Shown here: positions 2,713-35,083 of the stretch, in pieces
Numbering within the stretch: position 1 is the stretch's first letter
Layout: every line of letters begins with the position of its first letter
Source: a virus
Reading direction: 5' to 3' (one strand)
IMG/VR virus record: IMGVR_UViG_3300008055_000280
Coordinates: 1-42,741 of that record
DNA: 42,741 nucleotides
The notes under the pieces: generated by a model
The model's input: only the letters and a program-made list of their open reading frames with translations
The model's database searches: none
Told to the model about the DNA's origin: nothing
Position numbers and translations under genes: made by a program

Positions 2713-5700
2713 TTATTTTTCCCAACCCTTTAGTTTGGCTTTTTCACGATACTCTTGTGCTTGTTTCTTAAGTAGTTTTTCACGTTCTGCTCTAGCAGCT
2801 TTCTTTTGTTCTGGTGTTCCACCGTAAACAGGGAAACCAAGTGTTCCTAGTAACGCACGTTTAGCACCCTCTCCTTCAGGAGCGCCAGCAGCAGCTTGAA
2901 CTTGAAAAGGTGTAGCCATTTGAGCAACAGCTTTAAGTCTACCAAAAGCACTACGATCAACCAATTTTGGCGCATCAGGACTAGCGTACTCTAAACCACC
3001 AACACCAACAATAGCAGCTTTAGGTATAAACCCTAGTTTATTAGACAGTGTTTTACTTGGGTCCATTATCCAGTGATAAGGCTCCATAGCGTGTTTCATA
3101 GCTTGCATGGATGTACCGTCAGGATACTCAATACGAGTTGGATCTTTGTTTTCCCAAATAGGACGACCCGCAGTCATCAAGTTAATAGCATTAACTAGCG
3201 TAAGGTACGTCAAAGCAGTTTTAAATTGATACAACCTAGCATAGTCTGCTTTAGTTGTAGGAACCATCATGCCTTTAAGACCTTCAACAGGTTGCCATTT
3301 AGTAGGATTCAATCCTTTGGGAAGAGCAGCAGTAAATGCTCGCAAAGTAGATATAGTCCAATCAGGAGCAAACAAAAGAATTTGCAAAGCTCTACGACCT
3401 TCAGGACTATACGCAGCCATAGACATGCGTTTAGCAAACTCATTTTGAGTCTGCGTAGCAGCATCAAACCAGTTCAAACCACCAAAACTGTCATTAACAA
3501 ATCTAGAGATTTCTTTACGAGCAACAGCTTCATCAAAGGGTTTGCCATCTTTAGAAGCTTGTATACGAGCTTTATCTAAATAAGCATTAGCCACCATCAA
3601 CTTACCACCAGTGTGCAAGTAGTCCCAAGTATATTTGTCAAACAAACCTAGGGTGTATTTTTCAACAGCAGTTAAAGATGACTCGAGTATGCGGGTCTTA
3701 GGACCATACTTACCAATCATTGAGTCTACAAACTTACCTGTAGATGACAAAACACCTCTAACAACATCTTCTGGGATTTCAAGTACAAGACCACCATCTC
3801 TAATCCACAAGTCAACACTCTCTCCAACCCCACCTTTTCTAAACTGTTCAACAGCTTTAGAGATTGCAGATAATTGCAACTCTTTACCAGTGACAGCTTT
3901 AATACCTCTCTCAACAAGAGGTAACACAATAGCTTCTTTAAGCGGTGTGAAAATAGGAATCTGAGCACTAGACATAACTTCCATCAAAGACTTAGCATGG
4001 AAGAAAGAACCAATAACGTTAATACGTTTAGTAAGTTGAGAGACAGTTCCAAGAGCTTTCATCAGCTCACCAGGACCAGCATCAAAGACAAACTTCAAGG
4101 CTGGCATCATGTCAGGATGTACAGCATAACCAGCAAACTGAGGACTATCCATCATCTGCCAACCAGGTGGCATTGGATTGTCTTTAGAAACTTCTTTGAT
4201 TAAAGTCTCACCATTGACGTTGCGAATCTGTTTAAGACTATCTACAAGATTTTTGTTTTCAATTGCCTTTTCCATTGACAAGGCATACTCTTTATAGATT
4301 TCAGCGATGTCTTTGGTCTTAATCTGAATGCGATAGTCAGACTTACCAGCAGCAGCAATACGAGTATTAGCTTCGTTTATATACCACTCTAAGTCTGCAA
4401 AGGTTTTGAACTTACGTTCTTTACCAAATTTAGACTCAGTGCTCATACCTCTCATAGAAGGATCACGAGCAGCTGTTCCTAGTAACGCTTGGACAAACTC
4501 TTCACGAGCACCCTTGGGAGCACCTTTCCAATCAATGATGTGGGTAACGTAATCTTCCAATAGACCTTTAACAACACCAGCATCGACAGCACGATTGCCA
4601 ATATCCTTGACAAGAGCTTCATACTTCTTAGCAAGAACAACTTCTTCAGGACTTAGTTTAGATAGATCACCCTTGTCAACAGCTTCAGCAATAGCTTCAC
4701 GCCTAGCAGGATCAGAGATATCCTTCATCATGTCACTTGCTTCATTGTGAATGATGCGCTCATTGGCAAGTTTGTTTTGGATGTTCATTCCAACAAACTT
4801 TTCAGTTTCTTTGATGGGTTCTAACCAAGTTTTTTTGTAGTTTTTATAGCCTTCATAGAACTCAACAGCAGCTACCTTGCCATGTTTTTCAAAGATTTCA
4901 GCAGCAATATCGTAGAACTCTTCCTCACTTTTAACATCACGAGGATCAGTTTTAGTCTTGTCAACGGGAAGCTCATCTGGTGAGCTTATGGCTTTAGAAG
5001 GAACACCTGTTGCAAAATCAGCACGAGGAGTAAACTGCTCGGACTGCTTAATCATTGAGATGCCACTGTCCATGACCTCATCAAAGGCTGTACGAGCACC
5101 TTCAGGAATGCCGTTGCTTATACGAACAACTTCTTTGAAAGCACCCCATAAGTTATTAAGAACACCTTTAGGTTGTTGACCAACACTAATGCCACTCAAT
5201 AACTTTTGAAATCTTTTGCTAGTAAAAGCTTCAGCAGCAAACTCATGTACATCTTCAAATCCGTAATATGGTTCACTTGTAGCAGGATCAATGTCTTTAC
5301 CACGAGTAGCTTTATAAGTATCAAACAACTCCTGCATCTTAATAGCAGCAGCACTACCCTTTTCATTTAATAATCTTTGTGTACCAGCATGAATAGCTTC
5401 GTGCAAGAGTGTGCCTACATTACCACCTTCACCTAGTTCTACCAAATGCCTATCGCCACCTGTGTATACACCCCTAGCATCTTGTTGTTCAAAACCATTC
5501 TTGTCTACATACTTAATAAGGTTGTTTGAGAACTCAAGCCTAGCACTGTTAATGAAACTAGATTTGTTAAGAGCTTTAGCAAGTATGCGTTGACTAACAG
5601 TACCCAAACTTGGTGTTTGAATAATACGCTCTAGGGCTTCACCTACACTCTTAGTGCCCCACAAATGGTCGTGCAACTCTACCCAGGTAGGTTTGTTAAT

Positions 5701-7239
5701 GTCAGCAAACTTAACAGCAGGTATGTCTTTACGCAACTGTTCAAGTTCAGCAGTAAGCCTAGCGTCTTCTGCTTTAAGTTCTTCAAGAGCTTTAGTATCT
5801 CCAAGTCGCTGAGCTTCTATCCTGTCTATTTCAAGACTAATGCCTTGGCGCTCCTCTCTATCATTAATAGCTTTTTTGTAATCGTTACGAGTAATAGGCG
5901 TTCCTTCTGTAAAATCTCTGGGTGTACCAGCAGACTGTTCATCAGTAATCTCAAAACGTTTATCACCAGCTTTACGCAAGTCGTCACTACGCAACCCTAC
6001 TTCAGGAACTTCTGGCACATAGTCTTTAGGAAGTTGTCCAGTATTTTTAGCACGATCAGCAGCTTCTTGACGAGTTAAGAAGTTACCACGCTCATCCATA
6101 AAGCCTTGTTCGTGGGTATCAAAAGTCTCAAGCTTACGTTGTTCGTCATGCTTTGGTCCCATGCGTTCAATGTTGCCAGTCTCTTTGTTCCTAATAGCAG
6201 CTTCAACAAGAGGAGCTTTAGAGTCACGTTCAACTTTAATAGCTTCAAGTTTTGTTATATAAGCATCTACTTCTTCTGGGGGAGAACCTTCAGGAGGTTT
6301 GGGGGGCAGATCACTAATAGTAGGAGTAACTGGCTTAACACCACCAGGTAAGACACTAGAAATCTTTTCACCAACCTTTTGACCAGCAACAAAAGGAATC
6401 CTACCTGCTACGTTAAACCCAGGCATAGCTGCACCAGCAGCCGTAGCTGCTGCTACTTTCAAAGGTTCAATTGTTCCTGTTTCAGCGAATTCAGTACCAG
6501 CTTCAATACCACCCTGTAAACCACCAGACACAGTACGTTGACCTATGGGACTAGCAACAAACCGAGCAGCTCTACTAGCGCCTTCAGACACAGCACTAAC
6601 AGCAGTTCTGGGAGACATGCCAGCCATACCTACACCTAATTCAGTTAAGAATGTAGATGTTGGATATGCTTCTTTTTCTATTTGACGTTGTGCATAATCT
6701 TCGGGAGCAAATGTTTTGTGCATCAAGTCTTGAACTTTTTTAGCAGCACCAGATGCAACCATTGCTCCACCAAATCCACCACCAAGCATAACAGCTCCCC
6801 CAACAACAGGAGCAAATGGAGCACCAATACCCGTGGCTGCTGTAGCAGCAGTAGCACTAGCAGCATATGGAGCAGCTATAGCCATACCAGCACCAAAACC
6901 AGCTAAACCAGCACCAGTAGGAACAATTGCTTCTCCACCAGTACGATATATGTTTCTTCCGAGCCTACTTGCAGAGTCGCTTGTAGAGCCTGATCGCAAA
7001 CCAGGTTTAGAGTACATACCAAAAGCAGCACCACCCTCACCCTCAATAATAGGAGTAGTTGAAGGTCTAGCTTCTGGTTCTTTAGGTATCAAATCATCAA
7101 AAGAAATATTAGCTTCTTTGGAAGAACTTGCTTTGCTTGGGATTAAATCATCAAAAGAAATGTTTGTCCCTTTACTTGGAGTTGATAATCCTCGTTGTTT
7201 GGTTGGGATAAGATCGTCAAAAGAAATGTCAGTAGCCAT
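2713..7239 (-). CDS. Giant internal virion/ejection protein with zincin-like HEXXH motif
   Basis: At 1508 residues this is the largest gene in the window, with a clear AGGAG site before the ATG. The N-terminus carries three copies of ISFDDLIP (residues 5-12, 27-34, 45-52) separated by Ser/Lys linkers. A Gly/Ala-rich hydrophobic region follows (about 105-170). At 613-617 lies HEAIH, a metallopeptidase-type HEXXH, followed by HEFAAEAF at 665-672 whose E670 could be the third zinc ligand. The C-terminal half is mostly helical. Position after two other candidate ejection proteins and size match the T7 gp16/P22 gp16 type of DNA-ejection protein. The ISFDDLIP repeats may be interaction or packaging tags. 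Enzymatic activity is unproven. Confidence 0.8.
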   Translation of the reverse strand: MATDISFDDLIPTKQRGLSTPSKGTNISFDDLIPSKASSSKEANISFDDLIPKEPEARPSTTPIIEGEGGAAFGMYSKPGLRSGSTSDSASRLGRNIYRTGGEAIVPTGAGLAGFGAGMAIAAPYAASATAATAATGIGAPFAPVVGGAVMLGGGFGGAMVASGAAKKVQDLMHKTFAPEDYAQRQIEKEAYPTSTFLTELGVGMAGMSPRTAVSAVSEGASRAARFVASPIGQRTVSGGLQGGIEAGTEFAETGTIEPLKVAAATAAGAAMPGFNVAGRIPFVAGQKVGEKISSVLPGGVKPVTPTISDLPPKPPEGSPPEEVDAYITKLEAIKVERDSKAPLVEAAIRNKETGNIERMGPKHDEQRKLETFDTHEQGFMDERGNFLTRQEAADRAKNTGQLPKDYVPEVPEVGLRSDDLRKAGDKRFEITDEQSAGTPRDFTEGTPITRNDYKKAINDREERQGISLEIDRIEAQRLGDTKALEELKAEDARLTAELEQLRKDIPAVKFADINKPTWVELHDHLWGTKSVGEALERIIQTPSLGTVSQRILAKALNKSSFINSARLEFSNNLIKYVDKNGFEQQDARGVYTGGDRHLVELGEGGNVGTLLHEAIHAGTQRLLNEKGSAAAIKMQELFDTYKATRGKDIDPATSEPYYGFEDVHEFAAEAFTSKRFQKLLSGISVGQQPKGVLNNLWGAFKEVVRISNGIPEGARTAFDEVMDSGISMIKQSEQFTPRADFATGVPSKAISSPDELPVDKTKTDPRDVKSEEEFYDIAAEIFEKHGKVAAVEFYEGYKNYKKTWLEPIKETEKFVGMNIQNKLANERIIHNEASDMMKDISDPARREAIAEAVDKGDLSKLSPEEVVLAKKYEALVKDIGNRAVDAGVVKGLLEDYVTHIIDWKGAPKGAREEFVQALLGTAARDPSMRGMSTESKFGKERKFKTFADLEWYINEANTRIAAAGKSDYRIQIKTKDIAEIYKEYALSMEKAIENKNLVDSLKQIRNVNGETLIKEVSKDNPMPPGWQMMDSPQFAGYAVHPDMMPALKFVFDAGPGELMKALGTVSQLTKRINVIGSFFHAKSLMEVMSSAQIPIFTPLKEAIVLPLVERGIKAVTGKELQLSAISKAVEQFRKGGVGESVDLWIRDGGLVLEIPEDVVRGVLSSTGKFVDSMIGKYGPKTRILESSLTAVEKYTLGLFDKYTWDYLHTGGKLMVANAYLDKARIQASKDGKPFDEAVARKEISRFVNDSFGGLNWFDAATQTQNEFAKRMSMAAYSPEGRRALQILLFAPDWTISTLRAFTAALPKGLNPTKWQPVEGLKGMMVPTTKADYARLYQFKTALTYLTLVNAINLMTAGRPIWENKDPTRIEYPDGTSMQAMKHAMEPYHWIMDPSKTLSNKLGFIPKAAIVGVGGLEYASPDAPKLVDRSAFGRLKAVAQMATPFQVQAAAGAPEGEGAKRALLGTLGFPVYGGTPEQKKAARAEREKLLKKQAQEYREKAKLKGWEK

Positions 7240-7242
7240 ACA

Positions 7243-8850
7243 TTACTCCTGGAACTTGAACTTAACACCAGCTGCTTTAAGCCGTTCTAGAACTTTTTCA
7301 CGAGGAGCCCCATCCTTAATAGCTTTGTTAGCCCTATCAATAGCCGCTTGATTTTGCTCTGGAGTTAGTTGGGGAGGTTGGTTGTTACTAGTAGCAGCAG
7401 CGCCACCCCCCTTAGATTTTTCTTTAGCAGCACTTACAGCTTCAGGAATGGTAGAAAAACTATCGTACTTAGCACCAGAAGCTAAAGCATTTGCAACAGC
7501 AGTTTCTTCATTAACCTCTTTACCTTTCCACAAAGATGGAATGTTAGTAGGTTTGCCCCCATTTAGTTTTGGGTTGGTAACTGTGATGGTTAGTTCAGTA
7601 GAGTAACTACCATCAGCATTTTTCTTAGCGGGATACCCATCATGGGTTTTAGCATTAGTAGGCATCCCACCTTTAGCAGAAGGAATCTTTCCTTCAACTG
7701 CTTTGCTACCAGTAGATTTATCTTCAATGTCAATGGGTGTTGCTCCTCCGTACAACTCAAGTTCTTTTTTAAGATTGTCTAAGATGCTATCCTTACCTGG
7801 AAAGTTAGGAGCAGTGGTAGTTAAAGTAATTTCTTTTTTAATTTGGTCACGTTTAAAATTATCACGCTCTGTAACAGCTTTTTGATAGTTAGCTTTTTCA
7901 GCAGCATCAAAGAACCAAGTTCTATCAAGCTTAGCTTCAGCATCAGATACATTTTTATCTAAAAGTTCTAGAGGTTTTTTAGCAGATTTTGAAACAGATT
8001 CTATAGCCCTGTTGTAAGCAGTCCAAGCTAAACGATCTTCTTTGCTATCACTATCAGTAGAATCACTGCCAATCATCCTGCGATTAAGCATACCATTTTG
8101 ACGAATAGTTTCTATGCGTTCACGAGATGCAGCAAGAACTTTAGCTTTTTCAATCTCAATATTTTTTAGTTGTGTAGCCATCTGCCCCTTGGCATTAAGC
8201 ATAAGATTCTTGGCTGCTTCTTTCTTTTCAGCACCAGTCATGTTGCTCCAGTTTGCTTCTCCAATCTGAGAGACAAGAGCTTTTTTATTGGCTTCTGGAA
8301 GACGATCTACAAACTCTTGTACCCTATCATCAGCCAGTGCAGCAATAACACCATAAGCATTGCCTACTTCTTGAGCTTGTTGATCTAGTTGTTTTTGTTT
8401 AACAGCTATTTGTCTTGCTTCAAGTAACTCAGCAGCAGCTAAGTTTGTTTTTAAATTTTCAACATTTCCAGACTGAGCATCAAGCATGGCTGCCATACGC
8501 AGCTTTTCAGGATCACTAGCATTTTTAAATTCAACAGTCTCTGATAAAGTTTTGAGACTAGCTTTAGATGCTTCAGAAGATTTAAAATTAGTATCAGTAA
8601 CCAAGTTACTTAACCTAATTTTTTCTAAAGTCTGTTGGTCTTGTTGAGCTTGTAAAGCTAATGCTTCTGGAGCATAGAAAGCTTTAAGACGATCTTGTTC
8701 TAGTTTAAGACGATCTTGCTGTAGCTTGAGTTGTGTTTGTTCAACAGCAGCATCAGTTTGTTGTTGCACATAAGGTGCAGCAGCCATACTTTGCTGAAGC
8801 TGTAAAGCTGCTTGTCCGCCAGCAGCTGCATCGGTCATTAGGTATGCCAT
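7243..8850 (-). CDS. Internal virion/ejection protein, coiled-coil rich
   Basis: 535 residues. Residues 10-110 and much of 110-330 are predicted coiled coil (repeated Lys/Leu/Gln heptads such as QDRLKLEQDRLKA). Near 390-475 is a compact domain with NGGKPTNIPSLWKGK followed by a SF-x-TIPEAVSAAKEKS tail, a module I recall from large phage internal proteins. The C-terminus is Gln/Pro-rich then charged. It lies between the 207-aa and 1508-aa candidate ejection proteins with 3-10 nt spacing, the relative place of T7 gp15 or P22 gp20. It likely enters the virion and helps carry DNA across the envelope. Start ATG has AAGGA upstream. Confidence 0.65.
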   Translation of the reverse strand: MAYLMTDAAAGGQAALQLQQSMAAAPYVQQQTDAAVEQTQLKLQQDRLKLEQDRLKAFYAPEALALQAQQDQQTLEKIRLSNLVTDTNFKSSEASKASLKTLSETVEFKNASDPEKLRMAAMLDAQSGNVENLKTNLAAAELLEARQIAVKQKQLDQQAQEVGNAYGVIAALADDRVQEFVDRLPEANKKALVSQIGEANWSNMTGAEKKEAAKNLMLNAKGQMATQLKNIEIEKAKVLAASRERIETIRQNGMLNRRMIGSDSTDSDSKEDRLAWTAYNRAIESVSKSAKKPLELLDKNVSDAEAKLDRTWFFDAAEKANYQKAVTERDNFKRDQIKKEITLTTTAPNFPGKDSILDNLKKELELYGGATPIDIEDKSTGSKAVEGKIPSAKGGMPTNAKTHDGYPAKKNADGSYSTELTITVTNPKLNGGKPTNIPSLWKGKEVNEETAVANALASGAKYDSFSTIPEAVSAAKEKSKGGGAAATSNNQPPQLTPEQNQAAIDRANKAIKDGAPREKVLERLKAAGVKFKFQE

Positions 8851-8860
8851 ATATTAGTCC

Positions 8861-9484
8861 TTAACCATACCAAGAATCAGTTGGTGTGCCACCCCAAGTC
8901 TGTCCACCATATGAATAACTACTTTGAGGTTGTCCAGTACCACCATATTGACCAGCAAGACCAGAAAGACCTGTAGAAAGAGCGCCCAAACCTTGCATAA
9001 AGCCTTGTTGATTTTGACCAGCTTGAACTAAACCAAGCCTAGCTGCTTCAGATGGTGCAGTCCCTGCACCAGAACCCACAGCAAGTCGATTGAGATAGTC
9101 GGTCATAAAGCCATAGTAGCCTCTTTGTCCAATACCTTGAAGATCTATTTGCTCATTACCAGAGTACAACATTCCAGACTTTGATGCAGAACGTTTAGAA
9201 GCTTCCATAGCAGGATCTAACACACCGCTTTCAAACTGACTGTATCCTGGCATTTTGGTGGGGTCTAATGTGCCACCAGTAGTTAAAGCACCACTATACA
9301 AAGAAGCAAGATTAGCTCTATACGGAGCAAAGGGATCAGCAGCAGTTTGTGCTTCAGTACCAGTAGCACTAGACCCTGGACCAACTCCTAAAACTCTACT
9401 TACTCCACCACCAGTGAGTGCGTTAACACCTGCGGCAATACCTACAGTAGTAGCAACAGTTGCTAATGAGATTCCAGCAGACAT
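8861..9484 (-). CDS. Small internal virion/ejection protein candidate
   Basis: 207 residues, Gly/Ala/Ser-rich. It starts with a hydrophobic segment (about 4-30) and ends in a Gly/Tyr/Ser-rich tail with several YGG-type repeats. The first of three consecutive candidate ejection genes, it is placed like T7 gp14 or P22 gp7 and has the same membrane-active composition. The ATG is preceded by GGAGAGGGG, a strong ribosome site that lies inside the end of the upstream SET gene (22-bp overlap). No enzyme motif. Assignment is from composition and order, not from a recognised sequence family. Confidence 0.6.
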   Translation of the reverse strand: MSAGISLATVATTVGIAAGVNALTGGGVSRVLGVGPGSSATGTEAQTAADPFAPYRANLASLYSGALTTGGTLDPTKMPGYSQFESGVLDPAMEASKRSASKSGMLYSGNEQIDLQGIGQRGYYGFMTDYLNRLAVGSGAGTAPSEAARLGLVQAGQNQQGFMQGLGALSTGLSGLAGQYGGTGQPQSSYSYGGQTWGGTPTDSWYG

Positions 9485-10365
9485 TTTTTATCCCCTCTCC
9501 AAAGATTATTTACTTGCATAGCTTGTCGATAGTCTAGAGTTATTTCTTCACCTAGATCACCGCCTACCATGCCACTTATATCTCGTAATGCTACTAAGAA
9601 CATATCTCCAAGACTGTTTGTAAAAGCTACTGCATTAGGAGTCTTAGAGTGGTTAATTAAATACCCCGCAGGGGTTCTACAACCACCAAGTCTCATAGGT
9701 GCAATGATGCTGTTTTGTTTAATCACAGCAGTAGAAAACATTCCTTTACCTTCTATAGGTGAGTCTCCAGTACATATACTGTAACTACCATCTGGAAAAG
9801 GAATGCAATCTTCTCTGTGTTTAGAAGCTAACTCAATGTCTTCTAGAGTCCACCCAGACTCTTCAACCATTAGCAAGAAGTCTTGTCGATCTTCTTCATG
9901 CAGCGGATATTCTTTAAGCAGTTTTTCTTGTTGATGTTGCTTAAAAATATCTGGAGACTTGAACAACACAGACTCAAGGTATTGAACATCTGTGTTATTA
10001 GTAACATAGATATTTTGCCACACAACGTCCTCTAAAGTAAAGCCAACTTTACTACCAGCTTTAGCAACAAACATGTGTGGAGCTACCAAAGTTTGAACTT
10101 GACCATCTCCATCAACAATATTGATGCTACCTTTAAGCAGCACATTCATATGCTCTGAGAGATGTTCCTGACCCACAATCATTGTGTTTTTAGGATAGTG
10201 GGCTTCTCGAATATATAAACCTCCACCAAATCTGTGGACAATAGAATTAGGAGTTTGCTCCTCATTCATCAACGCTTTAGCCAAAGCTAGTTTACTATCT
10301 GTAGTACGGAGGTCAAAGCCTTCTTTAGTAGCAACAGAATTAATAGCTTCTACAATTTGGTCCAA
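9463..10365 (-). CDS. Cupin + SET-domain fusion protein (putative protein lysine methyltransferase)
   Basis: 300 residues. Residues about 45-135 look like a cupin-type beta barrel with H68 and H72 followed by VLLKGS. Residues about 192-285 carry the SET hallmarks in order: GKGMF (206-210, AdoMet-binding GxG region), NHSKTPN (238-244) and EEITLDY (273-279, with the catalytic tyrosine). Known SET proteins transfer methyl groups from AdoMet to protein lysines, so a virion or host protein may be the substrate. The start is a TTG, decided by AGGAG 8 nt upstream, 2 nt after the stop of the gp10-like gene. It is embedded between tail and ejection genes, so it is expressed late and may be packaged. 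The family call is strong; substrate and role are unknown. Confidence 0.85.
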   Translation of the reverse strand: MDQIVEAINSVATKEGFDLRTTDSKLALAKALMNEEQTPNSIVHRFGGGLYIREAHYPKNTMIVGQEHLSEHMNVLLKGSINIVDGDGQVQTLVAPHMFVAKAGSKVGFTLEDVVWQNIYVTNNTDVQYLESVLFKSPDIFKQHQQEKLLKEYPLHEEDRQDFLLMVEESGWTLEDIELASKHREDCIPFPDGSYSICTGDSPIEGKGMFSTAVIKQNSIIAPMRLGGCRTPAGYLINHSKTPNAVAFTNSLGDMFLVALRDISGMVGGDLGEEITLDYRQAMQVNNLWRGDKKCLLESH

Positions 10366-10367
10366 GA

Positions 10368-11837
10368 TTATCTCCTGTAACGTCCACCACCAACTTCTTG
10401 CTCTTGGTCCATTTCACCTATCCTAAAGTCTATTTCAGCAGTATCTAAACGAAGAGCAACATTACTGCTACACAAGAACTCCCAGGCTCTACGCCTATCA
10501 GCACCACTTAAATAAACTTCTGATCTAGAAGCATTAAGATCAATAGACCTATAGTTTGACCAAGTGTTGTAGTCATCCCCAGTGTGACGTACTTGCATAG
10601 TACCAGCAACTTTATCACCAAGGATCTCTAACCTTCCATAGAACTTACGTTTAGTAGTCCCGTTGTCTATGATGTCTGTGACTGTTCTGCAATAAATTGG
10701 TTGCCCATTATCTTGGTATGTATCTACACCTAGAGTGTACAAAGTTGCAGTATCATCGTCTAGAATATATGGGACATTTAAAGTTTCTGCATAAAATGCA
10801 GGACGAAAATAAGATTCTTGATATGTACCAGGATTAGCTTGGTTACTACTTTGTATAGAGTATTGAGTCCAGGTATACCACATCTTTTCATTGATGTCGT
10901 ATACAAGAGTTTGGTTAGTGGTATATAAAGTTAATATATAAAGACTATGCCCACTAATAGTGTAGCAATAGGCAGATACTTGGCTAAGTCCATCAGCTGC
11001 TAGGTGTCGGTCAACGTTAGCTGTAGAAATTCTAACGGGAGACACACCATCCATAATGTATACAGAGCGTCCATAAGATTTGCCAGAGCCTACCCACAAC
11101 ACGGTATTACTAGTAGCAACAATACTGTCTCCATTAACACAACCAACTTCAGAAGAATAACTTGAAGCTACTCCCAAAGGAGAACCAGTAGCATTAGCAA
11201 CATCATAAAAAAATTGAATACTAGAATTGCCAAAAGCCACAAGATAATTTAAGTGCCTAACAATGCCAACAAGTGTGTCTGCTGTTTGTTCAAAGCTTAT
11301 GTAGTTTAAAGAATTCCAAGTAGTTGGATCACCAACATCACAGTTGTATATACGATTGGTAGTTGTACCAAGAAATATATAGTTATCTAAAAATACAACT
11401 CCAGGCACATAGGGTGCTGTAGGTAAAGTAGTTGTGGCTACAAATGAACCTGCTTGATTTAACAGGTAGCCAGTTACTTTGTTATGAAAGAATAGGTTAG
11501 CATCTAAAAATGTCTTGGCAAAATAACTTTGGCTAGTTGATGTTGACGTAGTTCCTAAATTTGTTACTGCAAAAGAACTGCTAGGATTAATCTGATATAC
11601 CGTGTTATTAATAACAGCAATAAGTTTGTCGTTAAATTCTACTAGCCCTTGACTTGGGGTATATGCAGGGGGTGTAACAGACACAATCTGTTTAATAGGT
11701 ACAAGACCAGGGCGTTTAACAAACTCTCGTTTTTGATCTCTTGTTTCAAAAAAACAGTTAGAAGAATACGAGTCTTTAGCAAACGTCCCATTGCGAGATT
11801 CTATTGGTTGAGTAAGAGGAATACGCAAGGTAGCCAT
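10368..11837 (-). CDS. P22 gp10-like tail accessory / packaged-DNA stabilisation protein
   Basis: 489 residues. An N-terminal region with KRPGLVPI is followed by repeated beta-rich segments consistent with a propeller-like fold, then a C-terminal domain with RHTGDDYNTWSNYRSIDL and RRRAWEF, typical of the P22 gp10-like plug protein family. In P22 this protein sits under gp4 and keeps packaged DNA from leaking. Here it follows the gp4-like gene with 2-nt spacing, and the same module order (gp4, gp10, then ejection proteins) supports the call. The product ends in a Gly/Arg-rich tail (GGGRYRR). Confidence 0.82.
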   Translation of the reverse strand: MATLRIPLTQPIESRNGTFAKDSYSSNCFFETRDQKREFVKRPGLVPIKQIVSVTPPAYTPSQGLVEFNDKLIAVINNTVYQINPSSSFAVTNLGTTSTSTSQSYFAKTFLDANLFFHNKVTGYLLNQAGSFVATTTLPTAPYVPGVVFLDNYIFLGTTTNRIYNCDVGDPTTWNSLNYISFEQTADTLVGIVRHLNYLVAFGNSSIQFFYDVANATGSPLGVASSYSSEVGCVNGDSIVATSNTVLWVGSGKSYGRSVYIMDGVSPVRISTANVDRHLAADGLSQVSAYCYTISGHSLYILTLYTTNQTLVYDINEKMWYTWTQYSIQSSNQANPGTYQESYFRPAFYAETLNVPYILDDDTATLYTLGVDTYQDNGQPIYCRTVTDIIDNGTTKRKFYGRLEILGDKVAGTMQVRHTGDDYNTWSNYRSIDLNASRSEVYLSGADRRRAWEFLCSSNVALRLDTAEIDFRIGEMDQEQEVGGGRYRR

Positions 11838-32190: not shown

Positions 32191-33954
32191 ATGCTGACTA
32201 AAAGCATTGAGGTAATGAAATATGTTAGGGCAAGTGCTGGCAGAGCCAATCTTGCTATAGCATTTGAGGATAGGAATGAGCCTAGACATGATGGTAAAAC
32301 TATCTATCTGCCTAGAATTACCTACCACACCACAGATTTAGAACTCAAACAACTACAAGCGTCTGTTGACCACGAGGTTGCACATGATCTGTACAGTTCG
32401 TTTGATGTTCTAAAAGACAAGAAACTTAATCCCAAAGGTCTATTGATGTTTGTTTGGAACTTCTTGGAAGATTCCAGAGTTAACAATATCGAAGCTAAGC
32501 AATATCTTGGCTTCAGAGAAAACTGGGATGAGTGTGCATCTGTTTTGATACAAAAGATTTTGGCTAAATCTAAACATGATGCCAAAACAATCTCAAAGAT
32601 AACCAAGGCTCTTATTTGTTGGGATGCTGCTGTATCAGCAAGTCACTTTCCAATGATAGAACTTATTGCAAGCAAGGTGACTCCCAACAAAAAGATTTTT
32701 GATGTTCTTAATAACTACACTGACCGTCTTGTGTCTTGTTATTCAATACTAGATAAAGAAGTAGGCACAAGAGCTACTTATGATTTAGCAGTTGACATCT
32801 TGAATGAGTTGGATGAAAAGTGCAAAGAAGAACTTAAAAACCCTGAAGAAGTTAAAAAAGACTCACCAAAAGAAACAAAAGTTAGTGGAGATGCGCCAAA
32901 AGAATCTTCAAAAGATGAGGGAGAAACTAAAACAAAAGAAGATGAATACAAGATCATCAAAGTTGAACTCACTGAAGAAGATTTAGCTGCGATGTCTTTA
33001 ACAATGCCCGAACACGGTGAAGAGATGGGCAAAGTAGGAATCAACTTTGATCCTGTCAAATGTGATGACGACTGGGACTTGACTGATTACAGCGAATTTG
33101 TCGTTGTCAACTATCCTAAAAATATTGGAGATGAAAGATACTTTCAATCTGCAAAAAAATTTCTTGAAGGATATGAAGAACAAGTTGGTTCTAAACTTAT
33201 TTCTCAAGAAAATTTTGCACAACAAGTTCGTAGACTAATCCAAATCAGAGCTAAAGTGCAAATGCAATATGGAACAAAAAAAGGCAAACTAGATCAATCT
33301 AGATTGTCTCGCATCTGTTTCAATGCTCCAGGTTTCAATGAGCGTGTTTTTAAGAACAAAATTGAAAACAAGTTGCTTGATGCTGCAATCACTGTTCTAG
33401 TTGATATGTCTGGATCAATGGGTGGTCAAAAAGTATTCAACGCTTTAGCTTCAACATTGTTGGTCAATGAAGTTTGTTCCACGCTAAACATTCCTCTAGA
33501 AATCATTGGTTTTACTGATGGCTACTCTAGTACCTTTGGTGGAATAAAACCAATTATGTATATTTACAAAAGTTTTTCTGATTTAAAAGTAAGTTCAGAT
33601 TCTTTACGTGAATATTTTGCATATAGTAGTAACCACATGAGTGGTAATCCTGATGGTGAAAACATTCTTTGGGCTTATGATCGTTTGGCTAAGCGTAAAG
33701 AAAGAAAAAAGTTATTGATAGTTATGTCTGATGGCAGTCCTGCTGCAAGTAAATCTTGTATGGGCATAGGAGAGTTCACACACAAAGTAATTGAAGAGAT
33801 AGAAGCTTCCAAGTCTGTAGACATCTATGGTCTAGGTTTGTGTAGCGACTCAGTGCAGTATTACTACAAAGCACATAGTGTGGTTAGTAAACCAGAAGAA
33901 ATCCCAAGTAAGTTGATTGAGTTAATAGAAAGGAAGATTGTCAATGGCAGCTAG
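32191..33954 (+). CDS. CobT-like VWA protein with N-terminal zincin-like motif
   Basis: 587 residues. The N-terminal domain has HEVAH (61-65) and, 27 residues on, FLEDSRVN (E93), the same order as in CobT-like proteins and reminiscent of a metallopeptidase site. Residues about 215-250 are a Lys/Glu-rich linker. The C-terminal VWA domain has the MIDAS DMSGS (405-409), then FTDGYSS and VMSDGSPA for metal coordination. Such VWA proteins work with a MoxR/CobS AAA+ ATPase, encoded next with an 11-bp overlap. No cobalamin genes are present, so a chaperone or remodelling role is more plausible than cobalt insertion. Confidence 0.82.
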   Translation: MLTKSIEVMKYVRASAGRANLAIAFEDRNEPRHDGKTIYLPRITYHTTDLELKQLQASVDHEVAHDLYSSFDVLKDKKLNPKGLLMFVWNFLEDSRVNNIEAKQYLGFRENWDECASVLIQKILAKSKHDAKTISKITKALICWDAAVSASHFPMIELIASKVTPNKKIFDVLNNYTDRLVSCYSILDKEVGTRATYDLAVDILNELDEKCKEELKNPEEVKKDSPKETKVSGDAPKESSKDEGETKTKEDEYKIIKVELTEEDLAAMSLTMPEHGEEMGKVGINFDPVKCDDDWDLTDYSEFVVVNYPKNIGDERYFQSAKKFLEGYEEQVGSKLISQENFAQQVRRLIQIRAKVQMQYGTKKGKLDQSRLSRICFNAPGFNERVFKNKIENKLLDAAITVLVDMSGSMGGQKVFNALASTLLVNEVCSTLNIPLEIIGFTDGYSSTFGGIKPIMYIYKSFSDLKVSSDSLREYFAYSSNHMSGNPDGENILWAYDRLAKRKERKKLLIVMSDGSPAASKSCMGIGEFTHKVIEEIEASKSVDIYGLGLCSDSVQYYYKAHSVVSKPEEIPSKLIELIERKIVNGS

Positions 33955-35083
33955 TGAAAAAATTGAAGATCTTGTTACCAAGGCTCTTAAAGAAGCATTG
34001 GACAAACGCAAGAAGTCTGAAGTGCTAATCAAAGAAGCTGAAAAGCTTATTAGTGATGTAGACATGCTCGACAAGATGGCTGGGAGTACTCCTCCAGCAG
34101 TAGCAACAAGTGCTGTCGGCAAAAAAGCTTTGGGATCAAATCAAGTTTGGTTGTCTAAGCTAATCAATGACTCATCAATTCCAACTGATGATGATTTTGG
34201 TGTTACAACATTCCACGACTACGATTGGGATGAGCGAGTTGCTTCATTTGTTCCTATGATCAACGAGCACTATGTTCTTGACAAAGAAATTGCAAGCAAC
34301 ATTCTGATGGCTTGGGAACTTAAAGAGAAAGTTCTTTGCTATGGTCCAACAGGTGCTGGCAAATCAACTACTATTGAACAGCTTTGTGCTCTTACTTGTC
34401 GTCCTTTTATCCGTGTAAATTGTACGGGTGACATGGACTCTTCTATGATCTTTGGTCAACTGACAGCCAAGGATGCATCAACAGTTTGGGTCGATGGTGT
34501 TGTAACAGATGCAGTTAAGTATGGTGCTGTGTTTGCTTGGGATGAGTGGGATGTAACTCCTCCAGAGATTTCTATGGGTCTGCAATGGCTCTTAGAAGAC
34601 GATGGCAAGCTTTTCTTGAAAGAAATGCCTGGTAGTACCAGAGATAAACAAATCGTGCCACACGAACATTTCAGAATCGTAGCTATTGGCAACACCCAAG
34701 GTCAAGGTGATGACACAGGTGCTCATGCAGGTACTAATGTTCAGAACTCAGCAACTCTTGATCGTTTTGGTACAGCAGTGTATGTGGACTACCTACACCC
34801 TCTAGTTGAGGAAAGGATGCTTAGAAATAAGTTTCCTGATACTGTGACTTCAAAGTCAGCTAAAGAGCTTATAAAGCTGGCTAACTTGATTCGTCAAGGT
34901 TACAAAGCCAGCCAGTTCAATTTGACTGTCTCTCCACGTTCTTTGTTTAGTATTTGTAGGAAGGTTTCTTCAGGGTGTTCTTTGAAGAAAGCTTTTACAT
35001 TGGTATACCTTAACAAGCTTAACGACACACAACGCAAAGTTGCTGATGAGTTGTTTAGCAAGGTCTACGGCAAAGACGCATAA
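33944..35083 (+). CDS. MoxR/CobS-type AAA+ ATPase
   Basis: 379 residues from ATG 33944, chosen for AAAGGAAG upstream. A charged N-terminal coiled coil (1-45) precedes the ATPase. It shows Walker A GPTGAGKS (134-141), Walker B AVFAWDE (195-201), sensor N250 in VAIGNTQG, and a likely arginine finger R274 in ATLDRFG. This is the CobS/MoxR branch, which forms rings and acts with VWA partners to remodel proteins or insert metals. The partner is the gene just upstream. A terminator-like hairpin follows its stop. Confidence 0.88.
   Translation: MAASEKIEDLVTKALKEALDKRKKSEVLIKEAEKLISDVDMLDKMAGSTPPAVATSAVGKKALGSNQVWLSKLINDSSIPTDDDFGVTTFHDYDWDERVASFVPMINEHYVLDKEIASNILMAWELKEKVLCYGPTGAGKSTTIEQLCALTCRPFIRVNCTGDMDSSMIFGQLTAKDASTVWVDGVVTDAVKYGAVFAWDEWDVTPPEISMGLQWLLEDDGKLFLKEMPGSTRDKQIVPHEHFRIVAIGNTQGQGDDTGAHAGTNVQNSATLDRFGTAVYVDYLHPLVEERMLRNKFPDTVTSKSAKELIKLANLIRQGYKASQFNLTVSPRSLFSICRKVSSGCSLKKAFTLVYLNKLNDTQRKVADELFSKVYGKDA

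Follow-up and report, generated by a model that had tools for sequence, protein, structure and literature searches.

What role could a SET domain play among the virion genes of a phage? To our knowledge, SET methyltransferases have been studied almost wholly as chromatin enzymes. The question is raised by one gene in the IMG/VR virus record IMGVR_UViG_3300008055_000280, all 42,741 nucleotides of which were analyzed (hereafter, the window). A preliminary description, made from the letters of the window, read this gene as a cupin-like barrel fused to a putative lysine methyltransferase, and suggested that the product might methylate virion proteins, might be injected to modify host proteins, or might be a tail component with a vestigial fold. 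An apparently active enzyme of this kind, conserved among the tail/ejection genes of podophages from aquatic settings, would imply that phages methylate either the ejection apparatus they carry or a host target early in infection; our literature search found no description of either.

The fusion gene and its neighbors

The fusion gene (9463–10365) encodes 300 amino acids and begins with a TTG codon at position 10365; it and the neighbors and domains described below all lie on the minus strand. Directly upstream is a gene for a P22 gp10-like head-closure (Hc3) protein (10368–11837; PHROG 578, E-value 1.3e-44), in keeping with the virion-module location proposed earlier. The start region of the fusion gene reads AGGAG-ATAATC-TTG, with AGGAG 6 nt ahead of the TTG and the TAA of the gp10-like gene 2 nt ahead of it, so Shine-Dalgarno-driven coupling to the gp10-like gene, as first suggested, is plausible. 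Homologues start at the equivalent site with TTG, GTG, or ATG.

Downstream, a gene for a 207-aa protein (8861–9484) overlaps the 3′ end of the fusion gene by 22 bases and is followed by genes for a 535-aa protein (7243–8850) and a 1508-aa protein (2713–7239), a probable ejection protein and a probable large ejection protein, respectively, to judge from position and conserved gene order. A PHROG search returned no family match for the 207-aa protein itself. It is probably the first DNA-ejection protein, given a position shared with annotated DNA-ejection genes in other phages and with a PHROG 598 gene in a reversed form of the fusion (see below). The gene was originally placed between a gp10-like protein and the first ejection protein; the upstream half of that placement holds by family match, and the downstream half by synteny only.

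A C-terminal Cys motif (KCL/LCQ) looks conserved but was set aside in the case of the window, where the codons for its Lys and Cys run into the start codon of the gene that follows (AAAAAATGTCT). Separately, the early region of the window (32191–35083) contains adjacent CobT-like and CobS-like (cobaltochelatase/AAA ATPase) genes.

Identity of the SET domain

Could the resemblance to SET be due to chance, or the reading frame be mis-called? The TTG start might suggest as much, as might a single-sequence phmmer search against the PDB, which gave chance matches only; an alignment profile was required. An NCBIfam search with the protein also returned no match. Against this, Pfam SET (PF00856) matches with an E-value of 3.9e-5 (24.5 bits, above the curated cut-off of 22.4; model positions 63–104 of 105), and a profile built from 43 homologues finds MLL1 (E-value 4e-7, in two separate motif blocks) and vSET (1n3j) in the PDB. 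Moreover, a search of IMG/VR for the same fusion in other phage genomes, as proposed in the preliminary description, recovered 31 loci with near matches and up to 444 matched stretches with a profile. Homologues in such numbers exclude a chance resemblance, and with the profile matches, the predicted folds, and the synteny they leave this explanation a negligible probability.

The AF2 model of the full-length protein (38 homologues; mean pLDDT 92.2, pTM 0.88) consists of a beta barrel (residues 39–121), long helices (139–181), and a second beta-rich domain (193–285). Combined with the profile matches, it divides the protein into an N-terminal cupin-type jelly-roll barrel (residues 34–136; 9958–10266), a helical linker (residues 139–181, with helices at 139–170 and 174–181; 9823–9951), and a compact SET domain (residues ∼186–286; 9508–9810). 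Foldseek searches with the full model return cupins in the PDB and SET proteins of phages and giant viruses in BFVD. When the SET part is modeled separately (pLDDT 88.7), the top match is vSET (3kma, E-value 2.2e-5), followed by MLL1, EZH2, and SETD8. Thus the structure prediction and profile search suggested earlier yield a SET-like fold, and by profile and motifs the window protein is a member of the SET-domain family.

The three sequence hallmarks first noticed do occur in the order given: GKGMF at residues 206–210 (9736–9750), the AdoMet motif NHSKTPN at residues 238–244 (9634–9654), and the catalytic motif EEITLDY at residues 273–279 (9529–9549), which ends in Tyr279. GxGxF, the NH pair (N238, H239) of NHxxPN, E274, T276, D278, and the Tyr279 of E(I/L)TxDY do not vary among 63 fusion homologues. 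For EITxDY, this conservation is partly built in where the profile search was used, since its pattern contained that motif; the near search, with patterns that lacked EITxDY, had the same outcome. The spacing from GxGxF to NH is exactly 27 residues in all 63. In an alignment that includes the reversed, split, and SET-only proteins described below, Tyr, NH, and GxG are invariant in 46 of 46 SET regions, as is an RTP motif, and the catalytic tyrosine is kept in every homologue examined. Ratios of pN/pS in the SET domain are low, similar to those of the cupin and mostly lower than in the linker—the least conserved portion of the protein—and indicate purifying selection.

These observations bear on whether the SET domain might be catalytically dead and serve a tail protein as a structural or peptide-binding module. 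Non-catalytic roles are known for some SET proteins, and the gene neighborhood here is structural, as that reading would have it. GxG, NH, E274, and Tyr279, however, remain invariant down to 25–45% identity, SET-only proteins included, and the domain is under purifying selection. The invariant catalytic set makes a dead module the less likely reading, one that we consider improbable on the present sequences, and the idea of a vestigial fold loses favor on the same grounds.

Two features of the phage domain are distinctive: the stretch from GxGxF to NH is short, and a glycine-rich insertion (G265xxGGxxG272; 9550–9573), which adds six residues relative to MLL1, lies directly ahead of the catalytic motif. 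The insertion is missing in Pseudoalteromonas phage PH1 and in two of the variant loci described below (L114 and L116). With so short a GxGxF-to-NH region, the domain may have an incomplete lysine channel.

The cupin half

The N-terminal half of the protein matches PHROG 12032 (E-value 1.6e-23) and PHROG 24280 (E-value 6.1e-21), families labeled ‘short tail fiber’ and ‘tail fiber adhesin’. Together with the Pfam SET match and the AF2 and Foldseek results, this bears out the proposed cupin-SET fusion. Cupins of this kind are widespread without a SET domain, in phages of Vibrio, Shewanella, Thalassomonas, Alteromonas, Sphaerotilus, Variovorax, Dickeya, and Bordetella. The lone cupin gene usually lies directly ahead of the first ejection gene. 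It comes after the head-closure genes in P22-like phages and, in two T7-like phages, between tail tubular B and a homologue of T7 gp14; in T7, the slot ahead of gene 14 is presumably occupied by gp13. In Alteromonas phage R8W the cupin is upstream of the portal, and in Bordetella phage BPP-1 the cupin gene (bbp23) lies on the portal side, between the GNAT acetyltransferase gene bbp24 and bbp22. The gene directly preceding the BPP-1 cupin (6480–7399 of locus L126) thus encodes another type of protein-modifying enzyme. The annotation labels and gene positions suggest that the cupin is a virion protein; we found no mass spectrometry or proteomics showing it in virions in the open-licence literature.

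The barrel had also been proposed to be a sensor or the remnant of a demethylase-like oxygenase. A methyltransferase partnered by an oxygenase-type cupin enzyme or a cupin that senses metal would fit the Foldseek neighbors, which include metal cupins and thiol dioxygenases, and a few polar residues are conserved (H44, E54, H72, and E112). Strict cupin metal motifs 1 and 2, however, are missing from all 63 homologues, which makes an oxygenase or demethylase role unlikely, and even the relaxed HxH..E pattern occurs in only one of the 63. As the cupin is, in addition, common without SET, we give the metal-dependent reading very little weight.

A conserved slot and a modular SET domain

In most IMG/VR loci with enough flanking sequence, the order gp10-like gene, cupin-SET gene, 207-aa-type gene, 535-aa-type gene is kept. 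The fusion is often better conserved than its neighbors; at locus L011, for instance, it shares 83% identity, vs 75%, 53%, and 30% for the neighboring proteins. Cultured or complete relatives include Rhodoferax phage P26218, Pseudoalteromonas phage PH1, and phage zth2-2, and in P26218 and PH1 the fusion is flanked by closure/tail genes on one side and a DNA-ejection gene on the other.

On a tree of the cupin half, the presence of SET requires two changes or more, and none of the bootstrap trees allows a single change, for a sample gathered with the fusion as query. SET has therefore joined or left the cupin at least twice. The two domains are also found in other arrangements. On a contig from a Methylobacter bin (L114, 5995–6852) the order is reversed—SET, then cupin—and a DNA-ejection gene (PHROG 598) follows. 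In Paraburkholderia ferrariae NBRC 106233 the cupin and SET genes are separate neighbors that overlap by 4 bases (L117, 5674–7121); next to them are genes for an O-like replication protein, a DnaB-like helicase, and two integrases, with a tmRNA gene just past an integrase. SET-only genes occur near integrase and primase genes in a Comamonadaceae genome (L116) and a Rhodocyclales genome (L115). The Rhodocyclales element (G003:C3, 255118–264728) spans 9.6 kb between 50-bp perfect repeats of a tRNA-Met end and carries an integrase, a primase-helicase, an SSB, the SET gene, and small unknown genes; this SET gene is related to the phage SET, and no virion genes were recognized within the element. 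This att-flanked element is satellite-like. Flanking att repeats were looked for around the L117 and L116 elements and none were found.

The Comamonadaceae element (L116, 5860–10042), which shares one gene with the Rhodocyclales element, also includes an integrase and a primase, and its SET-only gene lies directly ahead of three genes. The product of the second matches an ejection-module protein of a Vibrio phage (E-value 4.5e-12); that of the third is an SLT transglycosylase and matches the large protein encoded downstream of the fusion in a cupin-SET phage (E-value 6.6e-10). SET therefore accompanies ejection genes in the absence of a cupin as well. The substrate is not a virion protein in every case, because the Rhodocyclales element has no recognized virion genes and the SET gene of P. 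ferrariae lies beside replication genes and integrases.

Proposed role

An intact-looking SET domain, fused to a cupin that in many related phages stands alone in this slot, suggests that these phages methylate their own tail/ejection proteins or proteins of the host. Our preferred reading, held tentatively and at slightly less than even confidence, is that the protein is an active AdoMet-dependent lysine methyltransferase, docked by its cupin at the tail/ejection apparatus, that modifies a neighboring virion protein during assembly. The cupin-SET protein would be produced alongside the gp10-like closure protein and the proteins for ejection. Its cupin half, as a phage tail/ejection-module protein, would serve in docking or oligomerization and would bring the small SET domain to the portal/nozzle/ejection assembly. 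There, at least one lysine of an ejection protein, of the nozzle/closure protein, or of the enzyme itself would be methylated as the particle forms. This proposal builds on the intact SET motifs, the conserved slot, and the modular gain and loss that the sequences show and on the two folds that the models predict; the methyltransferase activity, the docking role, the substrate, and the timing we infer.

The main rival to methylation during assembly is that the protein is packaged, leaves the particle along with the internal virion proteins, and methylates a protein of the host at an early stage of infection, in takeover or counter-defence. The gene does sit directly ahead of ejection-type genes, and in satellite-like elements the SET-only and split forms lie away from virion genes, where a role directed at host or helper would be natural. 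On the other hand, the occurrence of a lone cupin in this slot points to a structural or assembly role for the N-terminal half, and an enzyme directed at the host needs no fixed position in the late module. We regard delivery into the host as somewhat unlikely, though a serious alternative to modification during assembly.

More broadly, SET may be a mobile module, fused to the cupin in phages and found alone or paired with a cupin gene in satellite-like elements. It would then constitute a phage lysine-methylation system that acts on the DNA-ejection machinery of podophages or is ejected into the host, and satellites could use it to modify the ejection proteins of a helper phage. This wider picture is possible but doubtful. 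The satellite-like carriers suggest a part for SET in phage-satellite conflict, and the cultured relatives P26218 and PH1 make the role of the cupin-SET protein directly testable.

Comparison with known systems

The fusion is already catalogued as PHROG 34170, with the label ‘unknown function’ (E-value 3.2e-65 to the window protein). Its members P26218 gp30 and PH1 gp49 resemble the window protein in cupin-SET architecture and slot, at 26–39% identity. The preliminary description mentioned neither this family nor the known phage ‘short tail fiber/adhesin’ family to which the cupin half belongs. One record, MW202744, names its product after the structure of the PBCV-1 methyltransferase. Open-licence full text on phage SET proteins, PHA00672, Bbp23, cupin podophage proteomics, and virion lysine methylation yielded nothing on a cupin-SET protein, and the papers on P26218 and X14 mention neither a SET nor a cupin domain. 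The family is thus catalogued yet undescribed, as far as the searchable open-licence literature shows.

Among known proteins, the phage cupins of PHROG 12032/24280, PHA00672, and BPP-1 Bbp23 share the barrel and, in many phages, the slot; unlike the window protein, they have no SET domain. The histone H3K27 methyltransferase vSET (PBCV-1 A612L) resembles the phage domain in its compact viral SET fold and shares its NH pair and catalytic tyrosine, but it is a lone domain from a virus of eukaryotes, whereas the phage form has an N-terminal cupin and the glycine-rich insertion. The region between GxGxF and NH is also longer in vSET than in the phage domain. The SET domains of MLL1/KMT2 are the best profile matches to the phage family, which is without their pre/post-SET zinc clusters and chromatin domains.
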